A stretch of 64,000 nucleotides of DNA from Thioalkalivibrio sp. ALJ16 (GTDB lineage Bacteria; Pseudomonadota; Gammaproteobacteria; Ectothiorhodospirales; Ectothiorhodospiraceae). Numbering within the stretch: position 1 is the first letter of the stretch; every line of letters begins with the position of its first letter. Location: contig NZ_KB898041.1 of assembly GCF_000377345.1 (NCBI RefSeq), positions 1-64,000 on the forward strand, in the 5' to 3' direction. Below are positions 4,618-49,399 of this stretch, one piece after another. The notes beneath the pieces were generated by a model that saw nothing but the letters and a program-made list of their open reading frames with translations, did no database searches and had not been told where the DNA came from. The position numbers were made by a program, and so were the translations under genes.

Positions 4618-4641
4618 CGTTATGTTTGTGTTTGCATATCG
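4618..4641. promoter_or_regulatory. ModE operator
   Basis: The sequence reads CGTTATGT, seven bases, then TGCATATCG. This matches the E. coli modA operator layout CGTTATAT-N7-TACATAACG in spacing and in most half-site positions. It lies about 125 bases upstream of the modA start and just after the modE stop, where ModE would be expected to repress modABC when molybdate is plentiful. Confidence 0.75.
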
Positions 4642-4693
4642 ACGGGCGCAATGATGCGGCGGCCGGGCGGGGGCCGTCAAGACCCGCCCGGGG

Positions 4694-5080
4694 TCAGGGT
4701 TCGTAGTCGTCGGCGAGGAAGTCGGCGAAGGCGTGCAGTTCGTCGCGCAGAGCCTCGCAGGCCTTGCGTTCCATGTCGCGGTAGCGCGCCAGCACGGTCT
4801 CGCCGAAGTCGGTGATCTGCGCGCCGCCGCCGCCGGAGCCGCCCTTGGCGGTGGCGATCACGGGTTCGCGGAAGCTCTGGTTCATGGTCTCGACCAGGTC
4901 CCAGGCGCGGCGATAGGACATGCCGACATGACGGGCTGCCGCGGAGATCGAACCCTGCTCGCGGATCGCCTCCAGCAGCATGGCCTTGCCCGGCCCCATG
5001 GCGGTGACCTCGCCCAGCAGCACGCGCAGGCGCGGGGTCTGTGCGGGGTCTTTTGGGTCGCCGGAATGGTGGGTGCTCAT
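4694..5080 (-). CDS. modE: ModE-type winged-helix regulator, DNA-binding domain only
   Basis: A 128-residue protein equivalent to the N-terminal DNA-binding half of ModE. The LysR-like winged helix is recognisable from ISAAARHVGMSYRRAWDLVE and the Gly-rich wing KGGSGGGGAQITDFG. E. coli ModE is about twice as long and carries two MOP/TOBE molybdate-binding domains at its C-terminus. These are absent here: after the wing and a dimer-helix-like segment the protein ends at DDYEP. The gene precedes modABC on the same strand, with the operator in the 200-base gap. It probably controls modABC, but how it senses molybdate is not evident from its own sequence; a separate Mop protein could supply binding. 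Confidence 0.88.
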   Translation of the reverse strand: MSTHHSGDPKDPAQTPRLRVLLGEVTAMGPGKAMLLEAIREQGSISAAARHVGMSYRRAWDLVETMNQSFREPVIATAKGGSGGGGAQITDFGETVLARYRDMERKACEALRDELHAFADFLADDYEP

Positions 5081-5150
5081 GCGGACTGGCCTGGGGTTTG
5101 CGTGCAGGGGGTGCGGATACAGGGTGGTTACGAAATGATACCCCGGAATT

Positions 5151-5219
5151 GCAGGAGGCCAGCACTCTGGCCGATGGGTGCCGATCCGGCGCCCTATCGG
5201 CCAGGTGCTGGCCTCCTGC
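5151..5219. repeat. Long imperfect hairpin downstream of acs
   Basis: Arms 5151-5175 and 5196-5219 are complementary over 24 base pairs with a single bulged base, starting GCAGGAGGCCAGCAC. The hairpin lies between the modE start and the acs stop, both on the minus strand. It could be a terminator, an mRNA 3' stabiliser or a palindromic repeat; there is no T run. Confidence 0.6.
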
Positions 5220-5231
5220 GGGGATATTGAG

Positions 5232-5254
5232 GGCCGGGGTGCGATACCCCGGCC
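5232..5254 (-). terminator. acs: Possible terminator after acs
   Basis: A perfect nine-base-pair hairpin (GGCCGGGGT, 5-base loop, ACCCCGGCC) begins seven bases beyond the acs stop codon. It lacks a clear T tract, so intrinsic termination is uncertain. Confidence 0.45.
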
Positions 5255-5260
5255 TCCGGT

Positions 5261-7219
5261 TCAGGCCTTGCCCTGGAGCTGCGGGATCACGGCCTCGTTC
5301 TCCAGCGTGGAGGTGTCGGATGTGATCTCCTCGCCCTTGGCGATGGAACGCAGCAGGCGGCGCATGATCTTGCCGGAGCGGGTCTTCGGCAGGCCGTCGG
5401 CAAAGCGGATGTCGTCCGGCTTGGCAATCGGGCCGATCTGGTCGGCGACCCAGTTGCGCAGGTCCTTCACCATCGCCTCGGCCTCGTCGCCGGTCAGGCG
5501 GTCGCCCTTCAGGATCACGAAGGCGACGATGGCCTCGCCCTTTACGTCGTGCGGGCGCCCGACCACGGCGGCCTCGGCCACCGCCTCGTGCGCGACCAGG
5601 GCGGATTCCACCTCCATGGTGCCGAGGCGGTGGCCGGAGACGTTCAGCACGTCGTCGATGCGGCCCATGATCCAGAAGTTGCCTTCGGCATCGCGGCGCG
5701 CGGAGTCGCCGGCCAGGTAGTACTTGCCGTCGAACTTGGGCCAGTAGGTGTCCTTGTAGCGCTGGTCGTCGCCCCAGACGGTGCGCAGCATGTGCGGCCA
5801 GGGCTTCTTGATGACCAGGTAGCCGCCCTGGTCCGCCGGCAGGCTGTTGCCCTGCTCGTCGACCACGTCGGCGTCGATGCCGGGCAGGGCCTGGGTGCAG
5901 GAGCCGGGCACCAGGGTGGTCGCGCCCGGGATCGGGGCGATCATGTTGGCGCCGGTTTCGGTCTGCCACCAGGTATCCACCACCGGGCAGCGTTCGCCGC
6001 CGATCACGCGGTAGTACCACATCCAGGCCTCGGGGTTGATCGGCTCGCCGACCGTGCCCAGCAGGCGCAGCTTGGACAGGTCGTACTGCGCGGGGATGTC
6101 GTCGCCGGCCTTCATCAGCGCGCGGATCGCGGTGGGCGCGGTGTAGAACACGGTGACCCCGTGGGCCTGGCACATCTTCCACCAGCGCCCGGCGTCGGGC
6201 ACGGTCGGCACGCCCTCGTAGATCACCTGGGTGGCGCCGACCGCCAGCGGGCCATAGGCGACGTAGGTATGGCCGGTGATCCAGCCGACATCCGCGGTGC
6301 ACCAGTAGACGTCGTCGCCCTGCAGGTCGAACACCCACTGGTTGGTGACGATCGCGCCCAGCAGGTAGCCGGCGCTGGAATGCTGGATGCCCTTGGGCTT
6401 GCCGGTGGAGCCGGAGGTGTAGAGCAGGAACAGCGGGTGTTCGGACTCGACCCATTCCGGTTCGCAGTCCACGGATTCGCCGTCCACGGCGTCCTCCCAC
6501 CAGACGTCGCGGCCTTCTTGCATGGTCACGTCGTTGCCGGCGCGCTTGCACACCACGACCTTCTCGACATCGCCCGGGTTGGAGTCCAGGGCCTTGTCCA
6601 CGTTGGCCTTGAGCGCCACGGTCTTGCCGCCGCGCGCGCCGCCATCGGCGGTGATGACCAGCCGCGCCCCGGAGTCCACGATGCGGTCGCGCAGGGCATC
6701 CGCGGAGAAGCCGCCGAACACCACCGAGTGGATCGCGCCGATGCGGGCGCAGGCCTGCATGGCGATCACGGCCTCGGCGTTCATTGGCATGTAGATGACG
6801 ACGCGGTCGCCCTTCTCCACGCCCATGCCCTTGAGGGCGTTGGCCAGCTTGCCGACCTCGTTGTAGAGATCGCGGTAGGTCAGGTGGCGGGTCTCGCCGT
6901 TCTCGGCCTCGAAGATGATCGCGGTCTTGTTGCCGCGCACCTCGAGGTGCCGGTCGATACAGTTGTAGGAGACGTTCATACGCCCGTCGGCGAACCACTC
7001 GTAATGTGGCGCGCGGGAGTCATCCAGGCCCTGGGTGAACTCGGTCTTCCAGTCGATCTTTTCGCGCGCGAGATCGCACCAGAAGCCCTCATGGTCGGCC
7101 GCCGCCTTCTGGTTCAGGGCCTCGAGATCCTCCGGTTTCAGGCGCGCTTTTTCGGTGAACGCCGCCGGGGGCGCGAAGTGGCGCGTCTCGGTAAGGGTGG
7201 ACTCGATGTTGTCACTCAT
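5261..7219 (-). CDS. acs: Acetyl-CoA synthetase (AMP-forming)
   Basis: Cytoplasmic enzyme that converts acetate, CoA and ATP to acetyl-CoA through acetyl-AMP. The protein has 652 residues, the normal length. The adenylate-forming P-loop motif [11 protein letters not shown] lies at 267-277. The conserved catalytic lysine sits in [11 protein letters not shown] near residue 617, the position that acetylation inactivates in characterised Acs enzymes. The next genes upstream on the same strand are a DEDDh exonuclease, a CBS/nucleotidyltransferase regulator and an acetate-type sodium symporter, so the block probably serves acetate uptake and activation. The first 25 residues precede the conserved AMP-binding N-terminal region, and the start codon agrees with family length. 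Confidence 0.97.
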
Positions 7220-7321
7220 CAGGGCCTCCGGAAAGGTTTTGCGGATTCGGTTGAGTAGGGGGCGGCACGGCCCCCCGTTGGTGGGTGCGAGGATAGCATG
7301 CGAACCGCCCGCTGGCCGCGC

Positions 7322-8059
7322 CTACCAGAGCCACGCGGGGCGGAACAGCACACGCCCGAGCGGCAGCTGGCCGTCCGGTGACTGCCGGCTGAGCAGGGCG
7401 GCGAACAGCTCGCCCGCGGCGATGGCGTCGAACAGGGCGTCATGCGCGCGGTAGGCCGGCAGGTTGTAGCGCGTGCGCAGGGTGTGCAGGCGCAGCCCGT
7501 GCGCCGGGATCGGCTGGCCGGCGCGGCGCAGGGCGGTCTCCGCCAGGCGCAGGGTATCGACAATGGGCAGCGGCGGGCGCACCCCGTACAGCCGCTGGCA
7601 GGCGCGTTCCAGAAAGCCGATCTCCAGGGCGGCGTGGTGCGCCACCATGATGCGCCCGGCGAGCGCGCGGAACAGGGCCTCAAGGGCGGCCTCCAGCGCG
7701 ATGCCGCCGGCGGCGCGCTGATCGGTGATGTGGTGGATGACCGCGCTCGCCTCGGGGACCGGGCCCTCGGCGCGGACCAGGCGCTGATCGGCGGTGGCGA
7801 GGTCGATGCACGGGCCGTCCATGGCCACCCAGCCGATGCTGAGGATGCGGTCGCGCTCCGGGTCCAGTCCGGTGGTCTCGAGGTCCACGGCGAGGAAGCG
7901 GCTGTGGGCGACGGCCTGCCCGGCGGTGGGCAGCGGGGTCTCCAGGGCCGCGCGCAGCGGGCCGGGCGGGCAGCGCCGCGCAGCCTGGCGGCGGCGCCGG
8001 CAGAAGCGCCAGTGGCCCGGGGGGCGGCGCCAGTCGGAGGGCTCGACCGGGCAGACCAT
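7322..8059 (-). CDS. DnaQ-like 3'-5' exonuclease (DEDDh)
   Basis: A DEDDh-superfamily exonuclease of the DNA polymerase III epsilon type, 245 residues. Motif ExoI is FLAVDLETTGLDP (Asp and Glu metal ligands), ExoII is in MVAHHAALEIGFLE, and ExoIII is AHDALFDA with the catalytic His and Asp. About 55 basic and Pro-rich residues precede the nuclease core. The gene starts 16 bases after the stop of the CBS/nucleotidyltransferase gene and is in line with it. Such exonucleases recur beside symporter/CBS loci in proteobacteria (recollection, not checked here). Its role there is unknown; it is not the replicative epsilon subunit by context. Confidence 0.85.
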   Translation of the reverse strand: MVCPVEPSDWRRPPGHWRFCRRRRQAARRCPPGPLRAALETPLPTAGQAVAHSRFLAVDLETTGLDPERDRILSIGWVAMDGPCIDLATADQRLVRAEGPVPEASAVIHHITDQRAAGGIALEAALEALFRALAGRIMVAHHAALEIGFLERACQRLYGVRPPLPIVDTLRLAETALRRAGQPIPAHGLRLHTLRTRYNLPAYRAHDALFDAIAAGELFAALLSRQSPDGQLPLGRVLFRPAWLW

Positions 8060-8075
8060 CAGCGCGTAGCGGCCG

Positions 8076-9923
8076 TCATCCGCGCACCCGTTCGGCGTTG
8101 GCCAGGGCGGACTTGCGGGTATCGCTGACCAGGCGGAACGCGGTCTTCAGGTGGTTGCGCTCCAGGGTGGACAGCGTGCTCGGGTCGAGGGCGTTGTCGG
8201 GGGCCTGGCCGTTGCGGATCTGTCCGGCCTGGTGGCGTGCGCGCAGGCCGGCGATGTACAGCCAGGCATCGACCAGGTTGGCGGCCGTGTTTTCGCTGAT
8301 CACGCCGGCCTGGGCGGCGGCGTGCAGCCGCTCTACCGTGCCGCGGGCCTCGCTGCCCGCGTTCAGGGCGAATACGCGGGCCATGGCCACGAGCGGCAGC
8401 AGGCCGCGCATCTTCAGGTCCAGGGTGTCGGCGTGTTCGCCGCTGGCCTCCAGCACGAACTGGCGGAAGAAGCCGAGCGGGGCGGGCAGGTCGCGGGCCT
8501 GATCGGCGAGGGCGGAAAGCAGGGCCTCGTGGCGCCGGGCGGTGGTCAGGGCGTGCTGGCGCAGGGGCTCGAACAGGCTGGCATCGCCGTGGATCACGCG
8601 CAGGTCCAGGTAGTGGCTGGCCAGCATGGCGTCGCGCGGGGCCGGGTGGTGCAGTACGCGTTCGAGCTCGCGCGCCCAGTCTGCGGCGCTGCGGCGCCAG
8701 TCGGGGTGGGTGGGGTCGACATCGCCCGGGCAGGCGCGGATGCCGCAGGCGTCCAGCCCGGCGCGGATCTGCTGCGCGAGCCGTTCGAACCAGGTGTCGG
8801 CGTCTGTCGGCGCGCTGTCGGCGATGATCAGGGCGGTGTCCTGATCGGTGAACACCGTCTGCTCGTGGCGGCCCTGACTGCCGCTGGCCAGCCAGGCAAA
8901 CGCGCACGGGGCGCTGCCGTGGTCGCGCTCGTACAGCTCGATAAGGCGCTGGGTCAGGGTGTCGATCACGGTGGTGAGCGTCTGCGTGATCTGCACGGCA
9001 TCGGCGCCGGTGTCCACCAGCTGTACCTGCAGCCGGGGCAGGGCCTGCATGATCCCCTGCAGGGCGGTCAGGTCGTCGGCCCGGCGCAGGTCGCGTACCA
9101 GGTACACGGCGCTGGTGCCCTGGTGGCGGATCAGGTCGGTGCTGGAGAGGATGCCGGTCAGTGCGCCGTCGTGCTCCTGCACCACCGGCAGGTGGTGGAT
9201 GTCGTGGCGGGCCATCCGCAGCAGGGCCTCGAACGCGGGCGTACTGCCAGTCACGGTGGTCAGCGGCGTGGCCATGAATTCGGCCACTGGCTGTTCCGGG
9301 TCCTGTTCGCGGGCCAGGGCCCGGCGCAGGTCGGTATCGGTGAGGATGCCGGCCGGCTCCTGCGGCCGTTCCGGGGGGTGCAGCAGCAGGGCCGAGATGT
9401 CGGACCGGTCCATCAGCCGTGCCGCCTCGCGCAGGCTCAGGGTTGTCAGGCCCCGCACCGGGTCGGGTGTCATCAACGCGCGCACCGGGGTGGTCAGCAG
9501 GCCCTGGGTGGCGTCACCGGCCGCGCCGCGGGGCGCGCCCAGGGGGCGCGGGGCGTCGCCGGCGAGGAACTCGGCAATGGCGCCATCCCGTGCCGACAGG
9601 GCCTGCGCGCGGTCCAGCGGCAGGTGGTAGACCAGGCTGTCCTCGGTGACCGGGCCGAGCCGGTGCCCCGGTGCTGCGGGCACATGGAAGGCATCGCCTT
9701 CGCCGAGGCGGTCCTGCAGGGTGTCGTTCGCGTCGCGGATCTCCACGCTGCCGGTGCGCAGGATCCACAGCCCCGCCTCGGCGGCGGGCGGAAAGTCGCT
9801 GCCGGCGCGCAGGTAGCGCAGGGTCAGCTGGCGCACGAGTGCGCTGCGGCTGGCCGCCGGAAGCGTGGCCAGGTCCGGGCACTGGTCGAGGAATTCGCGG
9901 ATCTCTTCAAGTTCGCCGTTCAT
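8076..9923 (-). CDS. cNMP-binding/CBS/nucleotidyltransferase (DUF294) regulator, copy 1
   Basis: A multi-domain cytoplasmic protein of 615 residues. In order: a cNMP-binding-like beta domain (about 30-125), two CBS domains (about 145-270, with MTPDPV and FMATPLTTV marking the starts of the pair), a DUF294 nucleotidyltransferase domain with GSQGRHEQ at 348-355 and the metal-binding DQD at 360-362, and a helical DUF294 C-terminal domain. The layout resembles GlnD-related signalling proteins, but the target is unknown. I use the ATG at 9923; a TTG at 9965 would add 14 residues and overlap a perfect hairpin. The paralogue at 12221-14095 has the same architecture, and the two enclose the sodium symporter genes. 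Control of symporter activity is a reasonable inference only. Confidence 0.88.
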   Translation of the reverse strand: MNGELEEIREFLDQCPDLATLPAASRSALVRQLTLRYLRAGSDFPPAAEAGLWILRTGSVEIRDANDTLQDRLGEGDAFHVPAAPGHRLGPVTEDSLVYHLPLDRAQALSARDGAIAEFLAGDAPRPLGAPRGAAGDATQGLLTTPVRALMTPDPVRGLTTLSLREAARLMDRSDISALLLHPPERPQEPAGILTDTDLRRALAREQDPEQPVAEFMATPLTTVTGSTPAFEALLRMARHDIHHLPVVQEHDGALTGILSSTDLIRHQGTSAVYLVRDLRRADDLTALQGIMQALPRLQVQLVDTGADAVQITQTLTTVIDTLTQRLIELYERDHGSAPCAFAWLASGSQGRHEQTVFTDQDTALIIADSAPTDADTWFERLAQQIRAGLDACGIRACPGDVDPTHPDWRRSAADWARELERVLHHPAPRDAMLASHYLDLRVIHGDASLFEPLRQHALTTARRHEALLSALADQARDLPAPLGFFRQFVLEASGEHADTLDLKMRGLLPLVAMARVFALNAGSEARGTVERLHAAAQAGVISENTAANLVDAWLYIAGLRARHQAGQIRNGQAPDNALDPSTLSTLERNHLKTAFRLVSDTRKSALANAERVRG

Positions 9924-35576: not shown

Positions 35577-35925
35577 TCAGCTGGGCGGCCCCGCCCGCGT
35601 GCTCCGCGCCTTTGTCTATTCCTGGCGCGGGCTGCGCGCGGCATTTCGTCACGAGGCCGCGTTTCGTCAGGAGCTGGCGCTGGCGGTGGTGCTGCTGCCG
35701 CTGGCGCTGTGGCTGGGTCAGGACGGCGTGGAACGGGCCCTGCTGGCGGCCAGCGTGCTGCTCATCCTGGTGGTGGAGCTGCTCAATTCGGCGGTCGAGG
35801 CGGCGATCGACCGCTTTGGTGACGGTCACCACCCGCTCTCGGCGCGGGCCAAGGACATCGCCTCGGCCGCGGTGCTGGTCAGCTTTCTGCTCGCCGCGCT
35901 GGTCTGGGCCCTGATCCTGCTCTGA
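35566..35925 (+). CDS. dgkA: Diacylglycerol kinase
   Basis: Small membrane diacylglycerol kinase of 119 residues and three transmembrane helices, recycling diacylglycerol from membrane-derived oligosaccharide or lipid turnover. The conserved ELLNSAVEAAIDRF and KDIASAAVLVSF segments are visible. The ATG at 35566 overlaps the cyclase stop by 11 bases (ATGGCATCTAG), so the genes are likely co-translated. The convergent znuA end lies 260 bases on, with a palindromic repeat between. Confidence 0.93.
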   Translation: MASSQLGGPARVLRAFVYSWRGLRAAFRHEAAFRQELALAVVLLPLALWLGQDGVERALLAASVLLILVVELLNSAVEAAIDRFGDGHHPLSARAKDIASAAVLVSFLLAALVWALILL

Positions 35926-41525: not shown

Positions 41526-43559
<2,034 letters not shown>

Positions 43560-43598
43560 AACGCCTGGTCGCGTACCCACGGTAGAATGAGTCCGATG

Positions 43599-43675
43599 GT
43601 AGGAGCCTGCTTGCAGGCGAAGCCCCTGCCAAACTCCGACATGGGCAGGGGCTTCGCCTGCAAGCAGGCTCCTAC
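43599..43675. repeat. Perfect 32-bp inverted repeat with 13-base loop
   Basis: Arms 43599-43630 and 43644-43675 are exact complements. The outer part begins GTAGGAGCCTGCTTGCAGGC, similar to the palindromic repeats often seen in Pseudomonas and relatives. It sits between two plus-strand genes. Confidence 0.85.
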
Positions 43676-43711
43676 GAAGACATCCAGATCATTGCAAAAG
43701 GGAAGGTTCGA

Positions 43712-44125
43712 ATGAGCGAGAAGAAGCTGATGGATTTCGTCGCCGAGGCGCGCAAGAACGTGAAGGAGATTGCCCCGGCCGATCTCGCCGAGAAGATGGA
43801 GGTGGGCGAGGACTGGCTGGTGGTCGACGTGCGCGAACCCTACGAGTTCGAGAAGATGCACGCGCCGAATTCGATCCTCGTGCCCCGCGGCCTGCTGGAA
43901 GGCGCGGCGGACCCGAATACGCCGCACCGCATCGATGCCCTGGTGAACGCGCGCGAGAAGCCGGTCGCGGTGATGTGCGCGACCGGCGGCCGCGCTGCTA
44001 TGTCCGTGCAGCGGCTGCAGGAGATGGGCTTCACCAACGTGGTGAACATCGCGGGCGGCATCAAGGGCTGGGAGGCCGAGGACCTGCCGGTGGAATCCGG
44101 GGCCTACGCCGGCAAATTGCCGTAG
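43712..44125 (+). CDS. Rhodanese-like sulfurtransferase
   Basis: Single-domain rhodanese of 137 residues. The active loop is CATGGRA with the persulfide Cys at position 89. The front motif is VDVREPYEFEKMHAPNSILVPRG. The protein may carry sulfane sulfur, which fits a sulfur-oxidising host, but its partners are unknown. The N-terminal 20 residues precede the domain. The palindromic repeat lies 36 bases upstream. Confidence 0.92.
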   Translation: MSEKKLMDFVAEARKNVKEIAPADLAEKMEVGEDWLVVDVREPYEFEKMHAPNSILVPRGLLEGAADPNTPHRIDALVNAREKPVAVMCATGGRAAMSVQRLQEMGFTNVVNIAGGIKGWEAEDLPVESGAYAGKLP

Positions 44126-44282
44126 CCATGTTTCGCGGGGCGGGGGCCGGTGTCTCCGCCCCCTATACCACCCTCTGCGGGTGCGTATCCGGCGGCGGGT
44201 TCATCCGGCCGTCATCGTTTCTACACGGTATGGTCAAGCGTGCGGCGTAGTCTCCGGGACAGTTCAACCGGAGGTCGCCACC

Positions 44283-45098
44283 ATGACCGCACCGCCTCGC
44301 TCCCTGTCCGCGTCCTCCGCGGATGCCGAAACCGCCTATCGCGTCCACCTGGCCTCCAGTCCTGCGGATCTGGAAGCCGCACAGCGCCTGCGCCACGAGG
44401 TCTTCGCCGGCGAGATGGGCGCGGTCCTTCCGCACGCCCGTGCCGACCTTGACTGTGATCCCCTCGATGCCCACTGCCACCACTTGCTGGTGCGCGAGCG
44501 CCGCAGCGGCGACGTGGTGGCCTGCACCCGTATCCTGACCGAGGAAAGCGCCGCTACAGCCGGCGGTTTCTATTCCCTGTCCGAATTCGAGCTGGGCCCG
44601 CTGATGAACCTGCCCGGGCGGACCCTGGAGGTTGGCCGGACCTGCGTGCGCACGGGCCATCGGCAGGGTGCCGCGATCAACGCGCTGTGGACCGGCCTGG
44701 CGCAGTTCATGACGGCGCATCAGTACGACTACCTGATGGGCTGCGCCAGCCTGCCGCTCGGCGAACAGACGCCGGCCCAGCTGGCCTGGCTGCGGCTGTT
44801 CCATCGGGCCCCGTCGCGCCTGCGCGTGACGCCGCGGCGGCCGCTGCCCAATGCCCTGACCATCTGCCACGGCACCCCGAGCCGCAGCGGCCTGCCGCCG
44901 CTGCTCAAGGCCTATCTGCGCCTGGGTGCGCGGATCTGCGGCGAGGCCTGCCATGACCCGGACTTCAATGTCGCGGATGTCCTTGTCCTGCTGGATGTGC
45001 GCGCCATGCCGGACCGTTACCATCGGCACTTCCTGGGCGCTGCGGCGCCTGCAAGCCGAGGGTCGGAACATGGTCGGGAATCTGCGGGCGCTGGGTAG
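44283..45098 (+). CDS. Ornithine-lipid N-acyltransferase-like protein (OlsB type)
   Basis: A GNAT-fold acyltransferase of 271 residues that resembles OlsB, which acylates ornithine to make lyso-ornithine lipid. RLRHEVFAGEMG and DLDCDPLDAHCHHLLVRER are typical of the N-terminal part, and EVGRTCVRTGHRQGAAINALWTGLA is the conserved central stretch. GGAGG precedes the ATG at 44283. The next gene encodes an OlsA/PlsC-like acyltransferase and overlaps by 29 bases. The olsBA arrangement supports ornithine-lipid synthesis. A related long-chain acyl-homoserine or PEP-CTERM-associated acyltransferase is the alternative. Confidence 0.72.
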   Translation: MTAPPRSLSASSADAETAYRVHLASSPADLEAAQRLRHEVFAGEMGAVLPHARADLDCDPLDAHCHHLLVRERRSGDVVACTRILTEESAATAGGFYSLSEFELGPLMNLPGRTLEVGRTCVRTGHRQGAAINALWTGLAQFMTAHQYDYLMGCASLPLGEQTPAQLAWLRLFHRAPSRLRVTPRRPLPNALTICHGTPSRSGLPPLLKAYLRLGARICGEACHDPDFNVADVLVLLDVRAMPDRYHRHFLGAAAPASRGSEHGRESAGAG

Positions 45099-45846
45099 GC
45101 TGATGCGCATACTGCTTCACATGCTGGCGGGGGTCTGGCTGACCTGGCGCATGACGCGCCGCGGTGACGACTTCGCCCAGCGCAGCCGCATCCGCCGGGC
45201 CTGGTACGACCGCGCGCTGTGGATCGCCGGGGTCCGGTTCTGCGTCCATGGCCGCGTGCCCGAGCGTCCGTCGCTGGTGGTGGCCAACCATGTCTCCTGG
45301 CTGGATATCCCGCTGATCGGGGCCGTGGTCGATCCCTGTTTCCTGTCCAAGGCCGAGATCGCCCGCTGGCCGGTGATCGGCTGGCTGGCCCGGCGTCACG
45401 ACACCCGCTTCATCGAGCGCGGGGGACATCAGGCCGCAGCCCACGTGGAGGCCATGCGCGAGGGACTGGAGGACGGGCGCCATTTCGTGGTGTTCCCGGA
45501 GGGCACCACCAGCCGCGGTGAATACGTGCGCCGCTTCCACCCGCGTCTGTTCGCCGCGGTAGCCGGTCGCGAGCATCCGGTGCAGCCGGTGGCGCTGGCC
45601 TACGAGCGCCCGGAGCAGGGCCCGGTGCCGGTGTCCTATGCCGAGGGGGATCACCTGATCGCGAACGTGTGGCGGCTGCTGGGCCGGCGCGAGACCCGCG
45701 TAGACCTGCACTTCCTGCCCGCGCTGGAGGCCACCGGCGCCGATCGGCGCGCGCTGGCCGATGGTGCCCGCGAGGCGATCGTCACGGCCCTGGCCCTTCC
45801 GGCGGATCCGCCGCCCAGCGGGCGGCGAACGCCGCTCGCCTCGTAA
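45070..45846 (+). CDS. 1-acyl-glycerol-3-phosphate-type O-acyltransferase (OlsA/PlsC family)
   Basis: Membrane-associated acyltransferase of 258 residues. The catalytic HX4D motif is in ANHVSWLDIPL, and the second block is FPEGTTSRGEYVRRFHP. An N-terminal hydrophobic helix (MRILLHMLAGVWLTWRM) anchors it. It starts inside the OlsB-like gene behind a GAGGG site. Placed after OlsB it is likely to convert lyso-ornithine lipid to ornithine lipid; a PlsC role in phosphatidic acid synthesis cannot be excluded. Confidence 0.83.
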   Translation: MVGNLRALGRLMRILLHMLAGVWLTWRMTRRGDDFAQRSRIRRAWYDRALWIAGVRFCVHGRVPERPSLVVANHVSWLDIPLIGAVVDPCFLSKAEIARWPVIGWLARRHDTRFIERGGHQAAAHVEAMREGLEDGRHFVVFPEGTTSRGEYVRRFHPRLFAAVAGREHPVQPVALAYERPEQGPVPVSYAEGDHLIANVWRLLGRRETRVDLHFLPALEATGADRRALADGAREAIVTALALPADPPPSGRRTPLAS

Positions 45847-45871
45847 CGACGACAGGGGAGGGGCCGGCACC

Positions 45872-47107
45872 ATGCATGCAACCGTTACCGATTCACGACA
45901 TTGTCCCCCTTCCCCGAATGCCCTCGACCTGGCGCTGGTCACCGAGACCTGGCCGCCGGAGGTGAATGGCGTGGCGCATACCCTGGCGCGGCTGGTGGAG
46001 GGTATGCGCGGGCGCGGGCATCAGGTGCAGGTGCTGCGCCCGCGACGGGCCGGCGAGGTCCGCGCATCGGCACCGGACACAGGATCGGCCCCGGAGGATG
46101 TGGTGTTCCCCGGCATGCCGCTGCCCGGCTACCAGGGCCTGCGCATGGGGCTGCCGGCGGCGCGACGCCTGACCCGGCTGTGGCGGGCGCGGCGTCCGGA
46201 TGCGGTCTACATCGCCACGGAGGGGCCGCTCGGCCACTCGGCGCTGCGGGTGGCGCGAGGGCTGGGCATTCCGGTCGCCTCCGGCTTCCATACCCAGTTT
46301 GATGGCTATGCCGAGTACTACGGTGTCGGCTGGCTGACGCCCGTGGTGCGCGCACTGCTGCGCCGCTTTCACAATCGCTGCGCGGTCACGCTGGCGCCCA
46401 CGCAGGCCCTGGCGGACGAGCTGGCCGGGCAGGGGTTCCAGCGGATGGCGGTGATGGCCCGCGGGGTCGACACCCGGCGATTCGCGCCGGCGCGGCGTTC
46501 GTCCGTGCTGCGCCAGCAGTGGGGCGTGGACGATACCACCCCGGTGGTGCTGTACGTCGGCCGGCTGGCACCGGAGAAGAATCTGCCGCTGGCCTTCGCC
46601 GCATTCCGGGCGCTGCAGCAACGCCTGCCCGCCGCGCGTCTGGTGCTGGTCGGCGACGGCCCGGCCCGCGCCGCCCTGGAACGAGAGCACCCGGATGCGC
46701 TGTTTGCCGGCCAGCAGGTCGGCGCGGACCTCGCCGGCTACTACGCCAGCGCCGACCTGTTCCTGTTTCCGTCCAGTTCCGAGACCTTCGGCAACGTGGT
46801 GATCGAGGCTCTGGCCAGCGGGCTTCCGGTGCTCGCCTTCGACATCGCGGCGGCGCACGAGCATGTGACCAGCGGGGTCCATGGCGCCAGCGTGCCGTTT
46901 ACCGGCGCGGCGGCCGAGGATGCGGCGGCGTTCGTCGCCACCGCCGCGGCCCTGGGGGATGACCCGCAGGGCTGGGGCGAGATGGGCGCGCACGCCCGCA
47001 GTCATGCCCGGGAGCTGGACTGGGCGCAGGTGGTGAGGCAGTTCGAGGACATCTGCCAGCAGATCATCGAGGAGACGCGCGATGCGAGTGCTGCAATGGA
47101 TGGATGA
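45872..47107 (+). CDS. Glycosyltransferase family 4 (mannosyl/glucosyl transferase)
   Basis: A 411-residue GT-B fold glycosyltransferase. The N-terminal segment LALVTETWPPEVNGVAHTL and the nucleotide-binding part LYVGRLAPEKNLPL are classic for GT4, and SSSETFGNVVIEALASG carries the E-x7-E motif. It resembles GDP-mannose-dependent enzymes acting on lipids. The ATG at 45872 has GGGGAGGGG upstream; an earlier start would be inside the acyltransferase end. It overlaps the PAP2 gene by 26 bases, so the two are likely coupled. Confidence 0.85.
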   Translation: MHATVTDSRHCPPSPNALDLALVTETWPPEVNGVAHTLARLVEGMRGRGHQVQVLRPRRAGEVRASAPDTGSAPEDVVFPGMPLPGYQGLRMGLPAARRLTRLWRARRPDAVYIATEGPLGHSALRVARGLGIPVASGFHTQFDGYAEYYGVGWLTPVVRALLRRFHNRCAVTLAPTQALADELAGQGFQRMAVMARGVDTRRFAPARRSSVLRQQWGVDDTTPVVLYVGRLAPEKNLPLAFAAFRALQQRLPAARLVLVGDGPARAALEREHPDALFAGQQVGADLAGYYASADLFLFPSSSETFGNVVIEALASGLPVLAFDIAAAHEHVTSGVHGASVPFTGAAAEDAAAFVATAAALGDDPQGWGEMGAHARSHARELDWAQVVRQFEDICQQIIEETRDASAAMDG

Positions 47108-47612
47108 GCTGGAGCTGGCGGTCTGCCAGCGTTTCAATCACTACAACCGGCGCCGTTTCGTCAGCCGCTTCTTCGGGGCGGTGAGCCGCCTGGGTGACGG
47201 GGTGCTGTGGTACCTGCTGATGCTGGCGCTGCCGCTGATCCACGGGCCGCAGGCGGCCTGGGTCAGCCTGCAGATGGCGGTGGTGGGGCTGATGGCGCTG
47301 CCGGTTTACAAGTGGCTGAAGCGACGGACGAGCCGGCGCCGTCCCTGTCACCGGGATCGACCATTCACGCGCACGGTGGACCCGCTGGACGAATTCAGCT
47401 TCCCGTCGGGGCACACCATGCACGCGGTCGGGTTCAGCGTGGTGCTGGTGGCCTGGTTGCCGGTATGGGCCTGGCTGGTGCTGCCGTTTGCGGTCCTGGT
47501 GGCGGCCTCGCGCCTGGTGCTGGCCCTGCACTATCCCAGTGACGTGGCCATGGGCGCGTTGATCGGGGCCACAATGGCGGGTTCGGTGCTCTGGCTCGCC
47601 GGGTTGTTCTAG
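47082..47612 (+). CDS. PAP2-family lipid phosphatase
   Basis: Membrane phosphatase of 176 residues with about five helices. The three PAP2 motifs are KRRTSRRRP, FPSGHTMHA and SRLVLALHYPSD. It probably removes phosphate from a lipid, for example phosphatidic acid to diacylglycerol. Its overlap with the glycosyltransferase suggests that the diacylglycerol is then glycosylated, but this is inferred. It ends 186 bases from the convergent hypothetical gene. Confidence 0.88.
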   Translation: MRVLQWMDELELAVCQRFNHYNRRRFVSRFFGAVSRLGDGVLWYLLMLALPLIHGPQAAWVSLQMAVVGLMALPVYKWLKRRTSRRRPCHRDRPFTRTVDPLDEFSFPSGHTMHAVGFSVVLVAWLPVWAWLVLPFAVLVAASRLVLALHYPSDVAMGALIGATMAGSVLWLAGLF

Positions 47613-47662
47613 GGAGACGCTGACTTAATCGCACGTCCGCGTCTCCCTGCGGAAATCGCTCT

Positions 47663-47786
47663 CGTCATCCCGGCCGTAGCGCAGCGAAGAGCCGGGATCC
47701 CCCGTGTTGGGGATACCGCATCGCCTTGATCTGCCCCGGCGTCGGAGATCCCGGATAACCCGTGCGCGGTTCCCGGGATAGCGACA
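47663..47786. repeat. Palindromic double-hairpin element, copy 2
   Basis: Related to 36020-36122: it opens with CGTCATCCCGGCCGTAGCG and closes with CCCGGGATAGCGACA. Internal GAGCCGGGATC and GAGATCCCGG pairs give two hairpins. It lies between the convergent ends of the PAP2 gene and the hypothetical gene. Confidence 0.6.
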
Positions 47787-47797
47787 GACGGGAGGGG

Positions 47798-48127
47798 TCA
47801 GCCGCGCGAGGCGAGGGCCTCCTCGTTGTAGGCGGCATCGATGGTCACGATAGTCTTTTCCACCAGGCGGAAGCCCTCCACCGGGGCATCGTCTCCCATG
47901 TACTTCAGGCGCGTGGGCCCGATGGACTTGACGGCCTCGGCGCGTTCCAGAGTGGTGTCCGGGCTGTCGGCGCCGGCGCCGTCCATCAGTGCGACCAGCA
48001 CCTCGGCGGCGATCGGGTTGCGGTGTTCCGCGTTGCGTGCCTTGGCCAGTGTCGCGGCCGGATCGCCGTCCAGGAACACGCCGTCCATGTGTTCATCCAG
48101 GTAGTGCAGCAGTTCGCTTAGCGTCAT
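47798..48127 (-). CDS. Hypothetical protein, 109 residues
   Basis: I do not recognise the family. The protein is acidic and soluble-looking, with a helical start MTLSELLHYLDEHMDGVFLDGDPAATL and no signal peptide or cysteines. The ATG at 48127 has a GGGAGA ribosome site eight bases upstream, which makes it a real gene. It runs on the same strand as the aminotransferase upstream, 87 bases past that stop. No function is offered. Confidence 0.65.
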   Translation of the reverse strand: MTLSELLHYLDEHMDGVFLDGDPAATLAKARNAEHRNPIAAEVLVALMDGAGADSPDTTLERAEAVKSIGPTRLKYMGDDAPVEGFRLVEKTIVTIDAAYNEEALASRG

Positions 48128-48214
48128 GGTGCGTCTCCCATTGGGTCTCGACATTCCCCACCACCGATCATGGCGACATGCGGGGACAAAACAAGGGGGG
48201 CTGGCGAAAGACGC

Positions 48215-49399
48215 CTAGCCCTGCTGCGCGTAGGCTGCCCGCGCCGCCGGCATGGCGCGGCCCGGGGTTACCGCACCCATGTCGGCCAGGACCGCTTCCA
48301 GCGCGGAGAGGCACAGCAGGACGTTCTTTTCGTTCGCCCCGTACCCCATCAGGCCGATGCGCCAGACCTTGCCGGCATACGGTCCAAGCCCGGCACCGAT
48401 CTCGAGACCGTAGCGGTTCAGCAGTTCGCTGCGCACCGCGGCCTCGTCCACGCCTTCGGGGACGTGAATGGTGTTCAGCTGCGGCAGGCGATGCTCGGCA
48501 TCGACCAGGAAGTTCAGGCCCATGGCCTCGAGGCCGGCGCGCAGCGCCGCGTGGTGCCGGCAATGGCGTGCCCAGCTCTGTTCCAGGCCCTCCTCGGCCA
48601 GGATCACCAGCGACTCGTGCAGGGCATACAAAGCGTTGATCGGCGCGGTGTGGTGGTAGGCGCGCTTGCCGCCCCCGCCCCAGTAGCCCATGACGAGGTT
48701 CAGGTCGAGGAACCAGCTCTGCACCTTGTGGCTGCGCGCCTGGATGCGTTCCACCGCGCGTTCGCTGAAGCTGACCGGCGACAGCCCAGGGGTGCAGGAC
48801 AGGCATTTCTGCGAGCCGGAGTAGATGGCGTCCACGCCCCAGTCATCCACGTACAGCGGGCTGCCGGCCAGTCCGGTCACCGAGTCGACGATGGTCAGGC
48901 AGCCATGTTCGCGTGCCAGCCGGCACAGGGTCTCGACGTCCGAGCAGGCACCGGTGGAGGTCTCGGCATGCACGAAGGCCAGGACCTTCGCATCCGGGTT
49001 GCCCTTCAGCGCGTCCTCGACCTTCTGCGGCGAGACCGGCGCGCCCCAGTCGTCCTCGACCACCACGGCGGTGCCGCCGCAGCGCTCGACGTTTTCCTTC
49101 ATCCGGGTGCCGAACACGCCGTTGATGCAGACGATCACCTTGTCGCCCGGCTCGACCAGGTTCACGAAGCAGGTCTCCATGCCGGCGGAGCCCGGGGCGG
49201 AGACCGGAAGGGTCAGGGCGTTGCTGGTCTGGAAGGCGTACTGCAGCAGGCCTTTCATCTCCTCCATCATGCCGACGAACACCGGGTCCAGGTGGCCGAT
49301 GATCGGTCGGCTCATCGCACTCAGCACGCGCGGATTGACGTCGGACGGGCCGGGGCCCATCAGGGTGCGCTGCGGGGGGAGAAAGGATTGTGCCTGCAT
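48215..49399 (-). CDS. Serine/alanine-glyoxylate aminotransferase, class V
   Basis: PLP-dependent transaminase of 394 residues. The PLP lysine is K198 in YSGSQKCLSCTPGLSP, VDSVTG supplies the Asp that contacts the ring N, and PGPSDVNPRVLSAM is the family N-terminus. It would aminate glyoxylate to glycine using serine or alanine. The neighbours glcE and glcF (glycolate to glyoxylate), plus gcv and glyA elsewhere in the window, fit photorespiratory salvage. The ATG at 49399 is preferred over 49471 by family length. It starts 144 bases past the glcF stop. Confidence 0.92.
   Translation of the reverse strand: MQAQSFLPPQRTLMGPGPSDVNPRVLSAMSRPIIGHLDPVFVGMMEEMKGLLQYAFQTSNALTLPVSAPGSAGMETCFVNLVEPGDKVIVCINGVFGTRMKENVERCGGTAVVVEDDWGAPVSPQKVEDALKGNPDAKVLAFVHAETSTGACSDVETLCRLAREHGCLTIVDSVTGLAGSPLYVDDWGVDAIYSGSQKCLSCTPGLSPVSFSERAVERIQARSHKVQSWFLDLNLVMGYWGGGGKRAYHHTAPINALYALHESLVILAEEGLEQSWARHCRHHAALRAGLEAMGLNFLVDAEHRLPQLNTIHVPEGVDEAAVRSELLNRYGLEIGAGLGPYAGKVWRIGLMGYGANEKNVLLCLSALEAVLADMGAVTPGRAMPAARAAYAQQG

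Follow-up and report, generated by a model that had tools for sequence, protein, structure and literature searches.

The window analysed here, a stretch of 64,000 nucleotides (bases 1-64000 of contig 5) from the 2.76-Mb, 99.9% complete genome of Thioalkalivibrio sp. ALJ16, contains at 44283-47612 on the + strand four intact genes encoding, in this order, an OlsB-like acyltransferase, an OlsA-like acyltransferase, a family 4 glycosyltransferase (GT4) and a PAP2 phosphatase. On balance, these genes probably form a PhoB-controlled operon that would exchange phospholipids for phosphorus-free lipids at low phosphate, a reading that is well supported by sequence comparison for the genes and their regulation, but not for the chemistry. 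A first-pass annotation had suggested membrane remodelling under phosphate limitation; the genes, the Pho boxes and the phosphate and lipid genes found near orthologues of the glycosyltransferase (GT) agree with that suggestion, whereas the ornithine lipid and glycosyl-diacylglycerol named as products stay at the level of prediction. The elements of the locus are as follows.

44198-44226, + strand: predicted Pho box of three units at 11-bp spacing (GGTTCAT ccgg CCGTCAT cgtt TCTACAC)
44231-44237, + strand: weak fourth Pho unit (TGGTCAA) next to the three-unit box
44248-44253, + strand: possible -10 element (TAGTCT), 10 bp past the fourth unit, read by eye
44283-45098, + strand: OlsB-like, putative ornithine N-acyltransferase; PF13444 (Acetyltransf_5) covers the core with 105 bits, and NCBIfam OlsB models are nearest
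45070-45846, + strand: OlsA-like, putative lyso-ornithine-lipid O-acyltransferase; PF01553 (Acyltransferase), 82 bits, with intact HX4D and PEGTTS motifs
45872-47107, + strand: GT4 glycosyltransferase of GT-B fold, forming a separate subfamily and with a lipid (diacylglycerol) as its probable acceptor; from Pfam, an AlphaFold model and a tree
47082-47612, + strand: PAP2 membrane lipid phosphatase, probable diacylglycerol supplier; PF01569, 71 bits, with three catalytic motifs

The Pfam matches behind these names, including Glyco_transf_4 (110 bits) and Glycos_transf_1 (94 bits) for the GT, all lie far over their cut-offs and the motifs are intact, which upholds the gene identities and coordinates given in the first pass. 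The starts (44283, 45070, 45872 and 47082) were set by comparison with orthologues, that of the OlsA-like gene being an ATG as in its orthologues. The OlsB-like and OlsA-like genes overlap by 29 nucleotides (nt) and the GT and PAP2 genes by 26 nt, so that the overlapping order described earlier holds at these two junctions, but not between the OlsA-like and GT genes, which are separated by a 25-nt gap. A PADLOC scan gave no match.

In the proposed mechanism, PhoB would bind the Pho box upstream of olsB and drive all four genes. OlsB would place a 3-hydroxyacyl chain on ornithine and OlsA would add the second acyl chain, yielding ornithine lipid; PAP2 would dephosphorylate phosphatidic acid (or a similar lipid phosphate) to diacylglycerol, to which the GT would transfer a sugar from a nucleotide-sugar, yielding a phosphorus-free glycolipid. 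The diacylglycerol would come from new synthesis and not from PlcP breakdown of phospholipid.

Conservation of the gene order was followed in two sets, one of 47 genomes of the family Ectothiorhodospiraceae, with a GT orthologue defined by a score of 375 bits or more, and one of 80 named loci across the beta- and gammaproteobacteria, selected on the GT alone; the sets overlap (L063=G025, L084=G011, L076=G001, L081=G003, L107=G038) and are not independent. The GT orthologue is present in 39 of the 47 family genomes, and in the 30 of these loci that were examined, each with 1.5-kb flanks, PAP2 always follows the GT (30/30), with OlsB and OlsA upstream of the GT in 18 (i.e., in at least 18 of the 47 genomes). 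The four-gene order also occurs in five of the 80 named loci, comprising Thioalkalivibrio sp. ALJT (the nearest named locus, with a GT 87% identical), a Chromatiales metagenome-assembled genome and three Chromatiaceae (Rhabdochromatium, Halochromatium and Thiohalocapsa), and a genome from another family of the same class (G285) reads rhodanese-OlsB-OlsA-GT-PAP2. The combination, which had been called unusual for one operon, is therefore a recurrent one. An OlsB match (E 0.001) was obtained in 27 of 38 good family genomes, a count that takes in weak matches such as that of G041. GT-PAP2 pairs without an OlsB match are found in six genomes that are 96-100% complete (G003, G005, G006, G007, G010 and G035), which suggests that the GT-PAP2 pair is a separate module that olsBA has joined, and that the GT is independent of ornithine lipid; glycosylated ornithine lipid, considered as a GT product, is disfavoured on the same grounds.

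The operon is very likely under PhoB control, as judged from its upstream sequence and that of its orthologues. The regions upstream of olsB (29 rows, 27 of them distinct because L063/G025 and L084/G011 are duplicates; L098 was dropped) mostly carry TCAY-like units, two or three of them spaced 11 bp apart, and against a flat consensus (p 0.05) nine of the 29 pass with two units and 21 with three. In 11 of 13 distinct genus rows a -10-like element was seen by eye, and a sigma-70 scan of 43500-48300 found no promoter. Of 127,944 positions (both strands of the window), the operon's site scores highest with a matrix drawn from other genera (nine loci) and takes third place with one drawn from three Chromatiaceae loci. 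The nine-locus matrix also detects the boxes of the genome's own pst cluster (19.5 and 15.6 bits), roughly 70 nt ahead of the pstC start and 93 nt ahead of the pstS start (both starts as read here), and since this cluster was not in its training set these boxes serve as a positive control for the Pho-box reading; phoB-, phoR- and pst-like genes sit together in the genome (named from translations; PstB by NCBIfam). Upstream of the GT, 49 of 74 named loci (five with OlsA upstream and one without a flank being left out) reach at least 10 bits, compared with 117 of 6,074 equal-length control windows from the same loci. PhoB boxes at orthologues, a check raised in the first pass, were accordingly found both before olsB and before the GT. 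A triple-unit pattern, composed with the window site in view, matches five places genome-wide, and its reverse none. Three of the five are the window operon and the regions upstream of pstS and pstC, and by matrix and pattern tests alike the operon has the 11-bp-spaced TGTCAT-like units upstream that mark the Pho regulon. Of the two further matches (G000:C2:77852-77878 and G000:C7:133151-133177; L255 and L257), the first precedes a thioredoxin-reductase-like gene by about 250 nt and the second is close to a gene for a YIP1-like membrane protein, both genes being named from translations.

The genes found near GT orthologues point to lipid and phosphate metabolism. Neighbours were sought in the 80 named loci by tblastn with reference proteins, up to 6 kb on each side of the GT (27 loci being shorter), and the families were named by Pfam and NCBIfam (LplT, PSD (TIGR00163) and PstB over NCBIfam cut-offs), while the name of the PlcP-like neighbour rests on a metallophosphoesterase domain, the association with GTs and the published gene order and not on a curated PlcP model. 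The neighbours were PAP2 (39 loci), a class III aminotransferase (27), PSD (22), OlsB (18), PlcP (17), DgkA (16), LplT (16), OlsA (14), a Zn-dependent phospholipase C (11), a second GT of the TETQG type described below (8), PstB (8) and a GT28 gene resembling monogalactosyldiacylglycerol synthase (4). At least one lipid or phosphate gene, PAP2 and second GTs (PlcP-type or GT28) included, is present in 74 of the 80 loci, and 57 have one other than PAP2 (PlcP, DgkA, Ols, phospholipase C, Pst, PSD or LplT); by a rough estimate of our own, rather than by sampling of random loci, a single-copy gene of a 4-Mb genome would fall within 6 kb in about 0.3% of cases. In G061, dgkA, plcP and a further GT are encoded on the same strand as the GT orthologue. 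The class III aminotransferase-domain protein is a neighbour of the GT in many Burkholderiales as well as in some other groups (e.g., L116:3311-4960, ~550 amino acids; L067); PSD and LplT are often present alongside it, PAP2 in none of these loci. The gene of the Zn-dependent phospholipase C family (PF00882) is a neighbour of GT-PAP2 in L129 (7753-8619) and ten other loci, from Thiobacillus, Gallionellaceae and others.

The source of diacylglycerol sets the locus apart from the best-known remodelling pathway. A PlcP query of the window genome (G000) at E 0.001 gave no match, and the metallophosphoesterase loci found there with PF00149 match PlcP at E 0.016 at best; the same query retrieves proteins that are 42-52% identical, with scores over 200 bits, from 26 of the 47 family genomes, in all five genera. 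A sister genome (G025) has a plcP-dgkA-GT cluster (L225, 8959-11456), the plcP flanks of which align to contig 21 of the window genome on both sides of a 3.7-kb stretch (L254, ~4636-8383) that, from translations, holds thioredoxin-like, truncated-haemoglobin-like and methyltransferase-like genes and the end of an AraC-like gene instead. Because both flanks lie in one contig, the absence of PlcP at that place is not an assembly gap, and without a PlcP match the genome would not use the textbook PlcP-Agt pathway. Searches of the genome with PF00882 (Zn-dependent phospholipase C) and PF04185 (PlcH-type) gave no match either, with weak controls (PF00882 was detected in one of 14 control genomes and over its cut-off in none; PF04185 in two of 14). 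From its place beside the GT, PAP2 is marginally favoured as the enzyme supplying the GT with diacylglycerol. A dgkA (diacylglycerol kinase) match lies at 35587-35922 on the + strand, about 8.4 kb upstream of the operon.

Taken together, these data allow a broader proposal, put forward tentatively and at somewhat less than even chances, of a PlcP-independent module in beta- and gammaproteobacteria in which a GT4 subfamily and PAP2, switched by PhoB, would convert part of the phosphatidic-acid pool via diacylglycerol into a phosphorus-free glycolipid, the module being combined with olsBA in one operon in Ectothiorhodospiraceae and Chromatiaceae.

While phosphate-controlled lipid exchange is the preferred reading, several results weigh against it. 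All four proteins score under the NCBIfam equivalog cut-offs. The window Pho box alone is not significant against the flat consensus (10/14, p=0.16; three units 13/21, p=0.21), and 25 of the 74 GT upstream regions stay under 10 bits. PAP2 is the sole listed neighbour in 17 of the 80 named loci and six have none, some of these 23 loci being short contigs. Seven of the 18 family genomes with the four-gene order are without a PlcP match (G000, G016, G023, G024, G026, G040 and the incomplete G032), but 11 also have PlcP, so that PAP2 is not simply a PlcP replacement. In the named loci, PlcP occurs in one of the 39 with PAP2 and in 16 of the 41 without it (Fisher 6e-5); this exclusion cannot be counted as significant, as it amounts to three independent contrasts on starred branches (seven on all) and is inseparable from phylogeny. 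The strongest hint against a diacylglycerol acceptor is the curated model that lies nearest to the GT, which is taken up below.

The alternatives differ mainly in what the last two genes would act on, and the most serious concerns PAP2. Its three catalytic motifs (KX6RP, PSGH and SRX5HX3D) are intact in a membrane protein, as expected of a lipid phosphatase, and the motif residues are invariant in 20 aligned orthologues; the AlphaFold model has a mean predicted local distance difference test (pLDDT) score of 90 and is closest among solved folds to Bacillus subtilis PgpB, followed by human G6PC1 and Aquifex aeolicus LpxE. Neither its sequence nor its modelled fold discriminates between phosphatidic acid, phosphatidylglycerol phosphate, undecaprenyl diphosphate and lipid A as the substrate. 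In a PhoB-regulated ornithine-lipid operon, the substrate of the GT could be a glycan or a carrier lipid, and PAP2 could be an LpxE-like phosphatase of lipid A or of undecaprenyl diphosphate, which would save phosphate or reduce the charge of the surface. LpxE is the best PDB sequence match of PAP2 (E 2e-5) as well as its third fold match, and the best NCBIfam model is the undecaprenyl-diphosphatase SepP; however, the scores for SepP (46 bits, cut-off 250) and for the LpxE model (19 bits, cut-off 177) are far under their cut-offs, and the recurring neighbours are mostly glycerolipid and phosphate genes. A role in the outer envelope is unlikely on this evidence, although it retains more weight than the explanations that follow.

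The GT has an intact EX7E motif, a GRxAxEKN motif and a modelled GT-B fold (pLDDT 87; top solved folds include BshA, PimB' and PimA), all of which are features of retaining GT4 enzymes. In an unrooted tree of 87 rows (a subset, with atu2297 (Agt) and GTcp not among the rows), three groups separate with supports of 99 (the window group), 97 (TDTFG) and 100 (TETQG). A single branch splits the 56 rows of the window group from the others, the TDTFG group included. The 14 TDTFG rows (327-365 aligned residues) have plcP within 2.1 kb in 12 cases; 14 of the 17 TETQG rows come from loci with plcP, many also with dgkA. Where the Agt/GTcp group reads FPSxTDTFG, the window GT reads FPSSSETFG. At the catalytic acidic position, 50 of the 56 window-group rows have E and six have D, whereas all 14 TDTFG rows have D and all 17 TETQG rows have E. 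According to the accessible text of the GTcp study, GTcp loses over 90% of its activity with D256E (PMC8231724), so Agt is not the right label for the window GT; the latter is a probable lipid glycosyltransferase in a GT4 subfamily of its own, without a characterised member found. Its recurrent place among phosphate and lipid genes speaks for the glycosyl-diacylglycerol synthesis suggested in the first pass; from this neighbourhood, diacylglycerol is a reasonably probable acceptor. An attempt to root the tree on the genome's other GT4s was rejected (outgroup branches of 7.5 and 10, with the outgroup not on one side of a branch), as was the idea that the TETQG group is Agt-like, since one member scores best on the Mgs model and the published Agt signature sits in the TDTFG group. 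The presumed catalytic His column of the 87-row alignment is Arg in 11 of the 56 window-group rows; the window GT has His. Three loci of other gammaproteobacteria (L238, L239 and L240) carry plcP with two TDTFG-type GTs, one per strand, and dgkA in the last two.

The nearest NCBIfam model of the window GT is the N-acetylglucosaminyl-phosphatidylglycerol synthase (NF053787; 150 bits, with the next models at 98), and three TDTFG-type (Agt-type) GTs had no NCBIfam match at 1e-20, which puts the window GT closer to that model than those three. These scores, along with PgpB as the top fold match of PAP2, fit an ornithine-lipid operon, also PhoB-regulated, whose GT would make glycosylated phosphatidylglycerol like GpgS of Pseudomonas aeruginosa and whose PAP2 would feed it as a phosphatidylglycerol-phosphate phosphatase. 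Such an arrangement is improbable, however, because the GT score is far under the 480-bit cut-off, the operon flanks are not the deacetylase and flippase of gpgSDF, and a phosphorus-containing product suits Pho control poorly. Additionally, a PlcP-linked TETQG-type GT (L065) scores 145 bits on the same model, so this score does not single out phosphatidylglycerol as the acceptor.

For the first two genes, there is a good probability that the product is ornithine lipid or a related aminolipid, a conclusion drawn from family membership and established knowledge of OlsBA. The two nearest NCBIfam OlsB equivalogs score 163 and 143 bits and do not reach their cut-offs of 350 and 320, which is why the gene is filed as OlsB-like; the nearest OlsA models score 123 and 118 bits (cut-offs 300, not reached) with the OlsA-like protein, and a PDB sequence search with the OlsB-like protein gave no match. 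These low scores, and the OlsB-dependent lysine lipid described besides ornithine lipid in the accessible text on Acinetobacter baumannii (PMC11828411), would allow the operon to work as proposed but with another amine (e.g., lysine) as OlsB substrate, making the aminolipid not, or not solely, ornithine lipid; as the top two models are OlsB with OlsF next, and an OlsA-like gene adjoins, this variant is rather doubtful. That the four genes are ordinary housekeeping neighbours with no common pathway or phosphate control, as might be suggested by the flanking rhodanese gene and gene without a Pfam match, neither of which is a lipid gene, is very improbable given the gene overlaps, the conserved order and the Pho boxes before the four-gene operon and many standalone GT genes.

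Among known systems, the PlcP-Agt pathway (Phaeobacter, SAR11, P. aeruginosa PA3219-PA3218/PA0842 and Methylosinus trichosporium) resembles phosphate-controlled lipid exchange by this operon in having a Pho box in the promoter, a GT4 and a phosphorus-free glycolipid (predicted here), with ornithine lipid made in parallel in M. trichosporium, according to the accessible parts of the reports (PMC8528852, PMC9239053, PMC4796936). The operon differs in that its genome has no PlcP match, its GT lacks TDTFG and groups apart, PAP2 adjoins the GT, and olsBA is in the same operon. In Desulfovibrio alaskensis G20, with agt and olsF, phospholipids give way to both ornithine lipid and glycosyl-diacylglycerols when phosphate is low, as predicted here, but by their numbering agt (Dde_3613) and olsF (Dde_3661) are separate loci, and the accessible text names no PAP2 partner (PMC5193443); the term PlcP is absent from the main text of that study. 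Acinetobacter olsB likewise has a Pho box in front and is induced there at phosphate limitation, whereas in A. baumannii olsA is elsewhere and uninduced, with no GT or PAP2 named alongside in the accessible text (PMC11828411). GpgS, although also a GT4 and the nearest curated model, has a deacetylase and a predicted flippase as partners in the accessible text (PMC12713373), and the window GT falls far under its cut-off. A search of the literature, mostly without subscription papers, found no report of an olsBA-GT-PAP2 operon or of a PAP2-fed bacterial glycolipid route under phosphate limitation, and no paper on Thioalkalivibrio with ornithine lipid. Judged from sequence, what is new is that a single Pho box would serve putative genes for both ornithine lipid and glycolipid, the GT being of a distinct kind and PAP2 apparently standing where the known pathway uses PlcP.

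PlcP serves as a genome and metagenome marker of phosphate-driven lipid remodelling, according to the accessible text of two reports (PMC9239053, PMC4796936). If the GT4-PAP2 route works without PlcP, surveys based on PlcP overlook remodelling bacteria, sulfur oxidisers included, and the diacylglycerol would come from new synthesis as opposed to phospholipid breakdown. The Pho-boxed GT family offers a marker that can be used at once and narrows the enzymes open to testing to a few. Downstream of the operon, the intergenic region 3' of PAP2 (~47660-47755) contains a repeat-like palindromic sequence (CGTCATCCCGGCC...GCCGGGATCC), spotted by eye.

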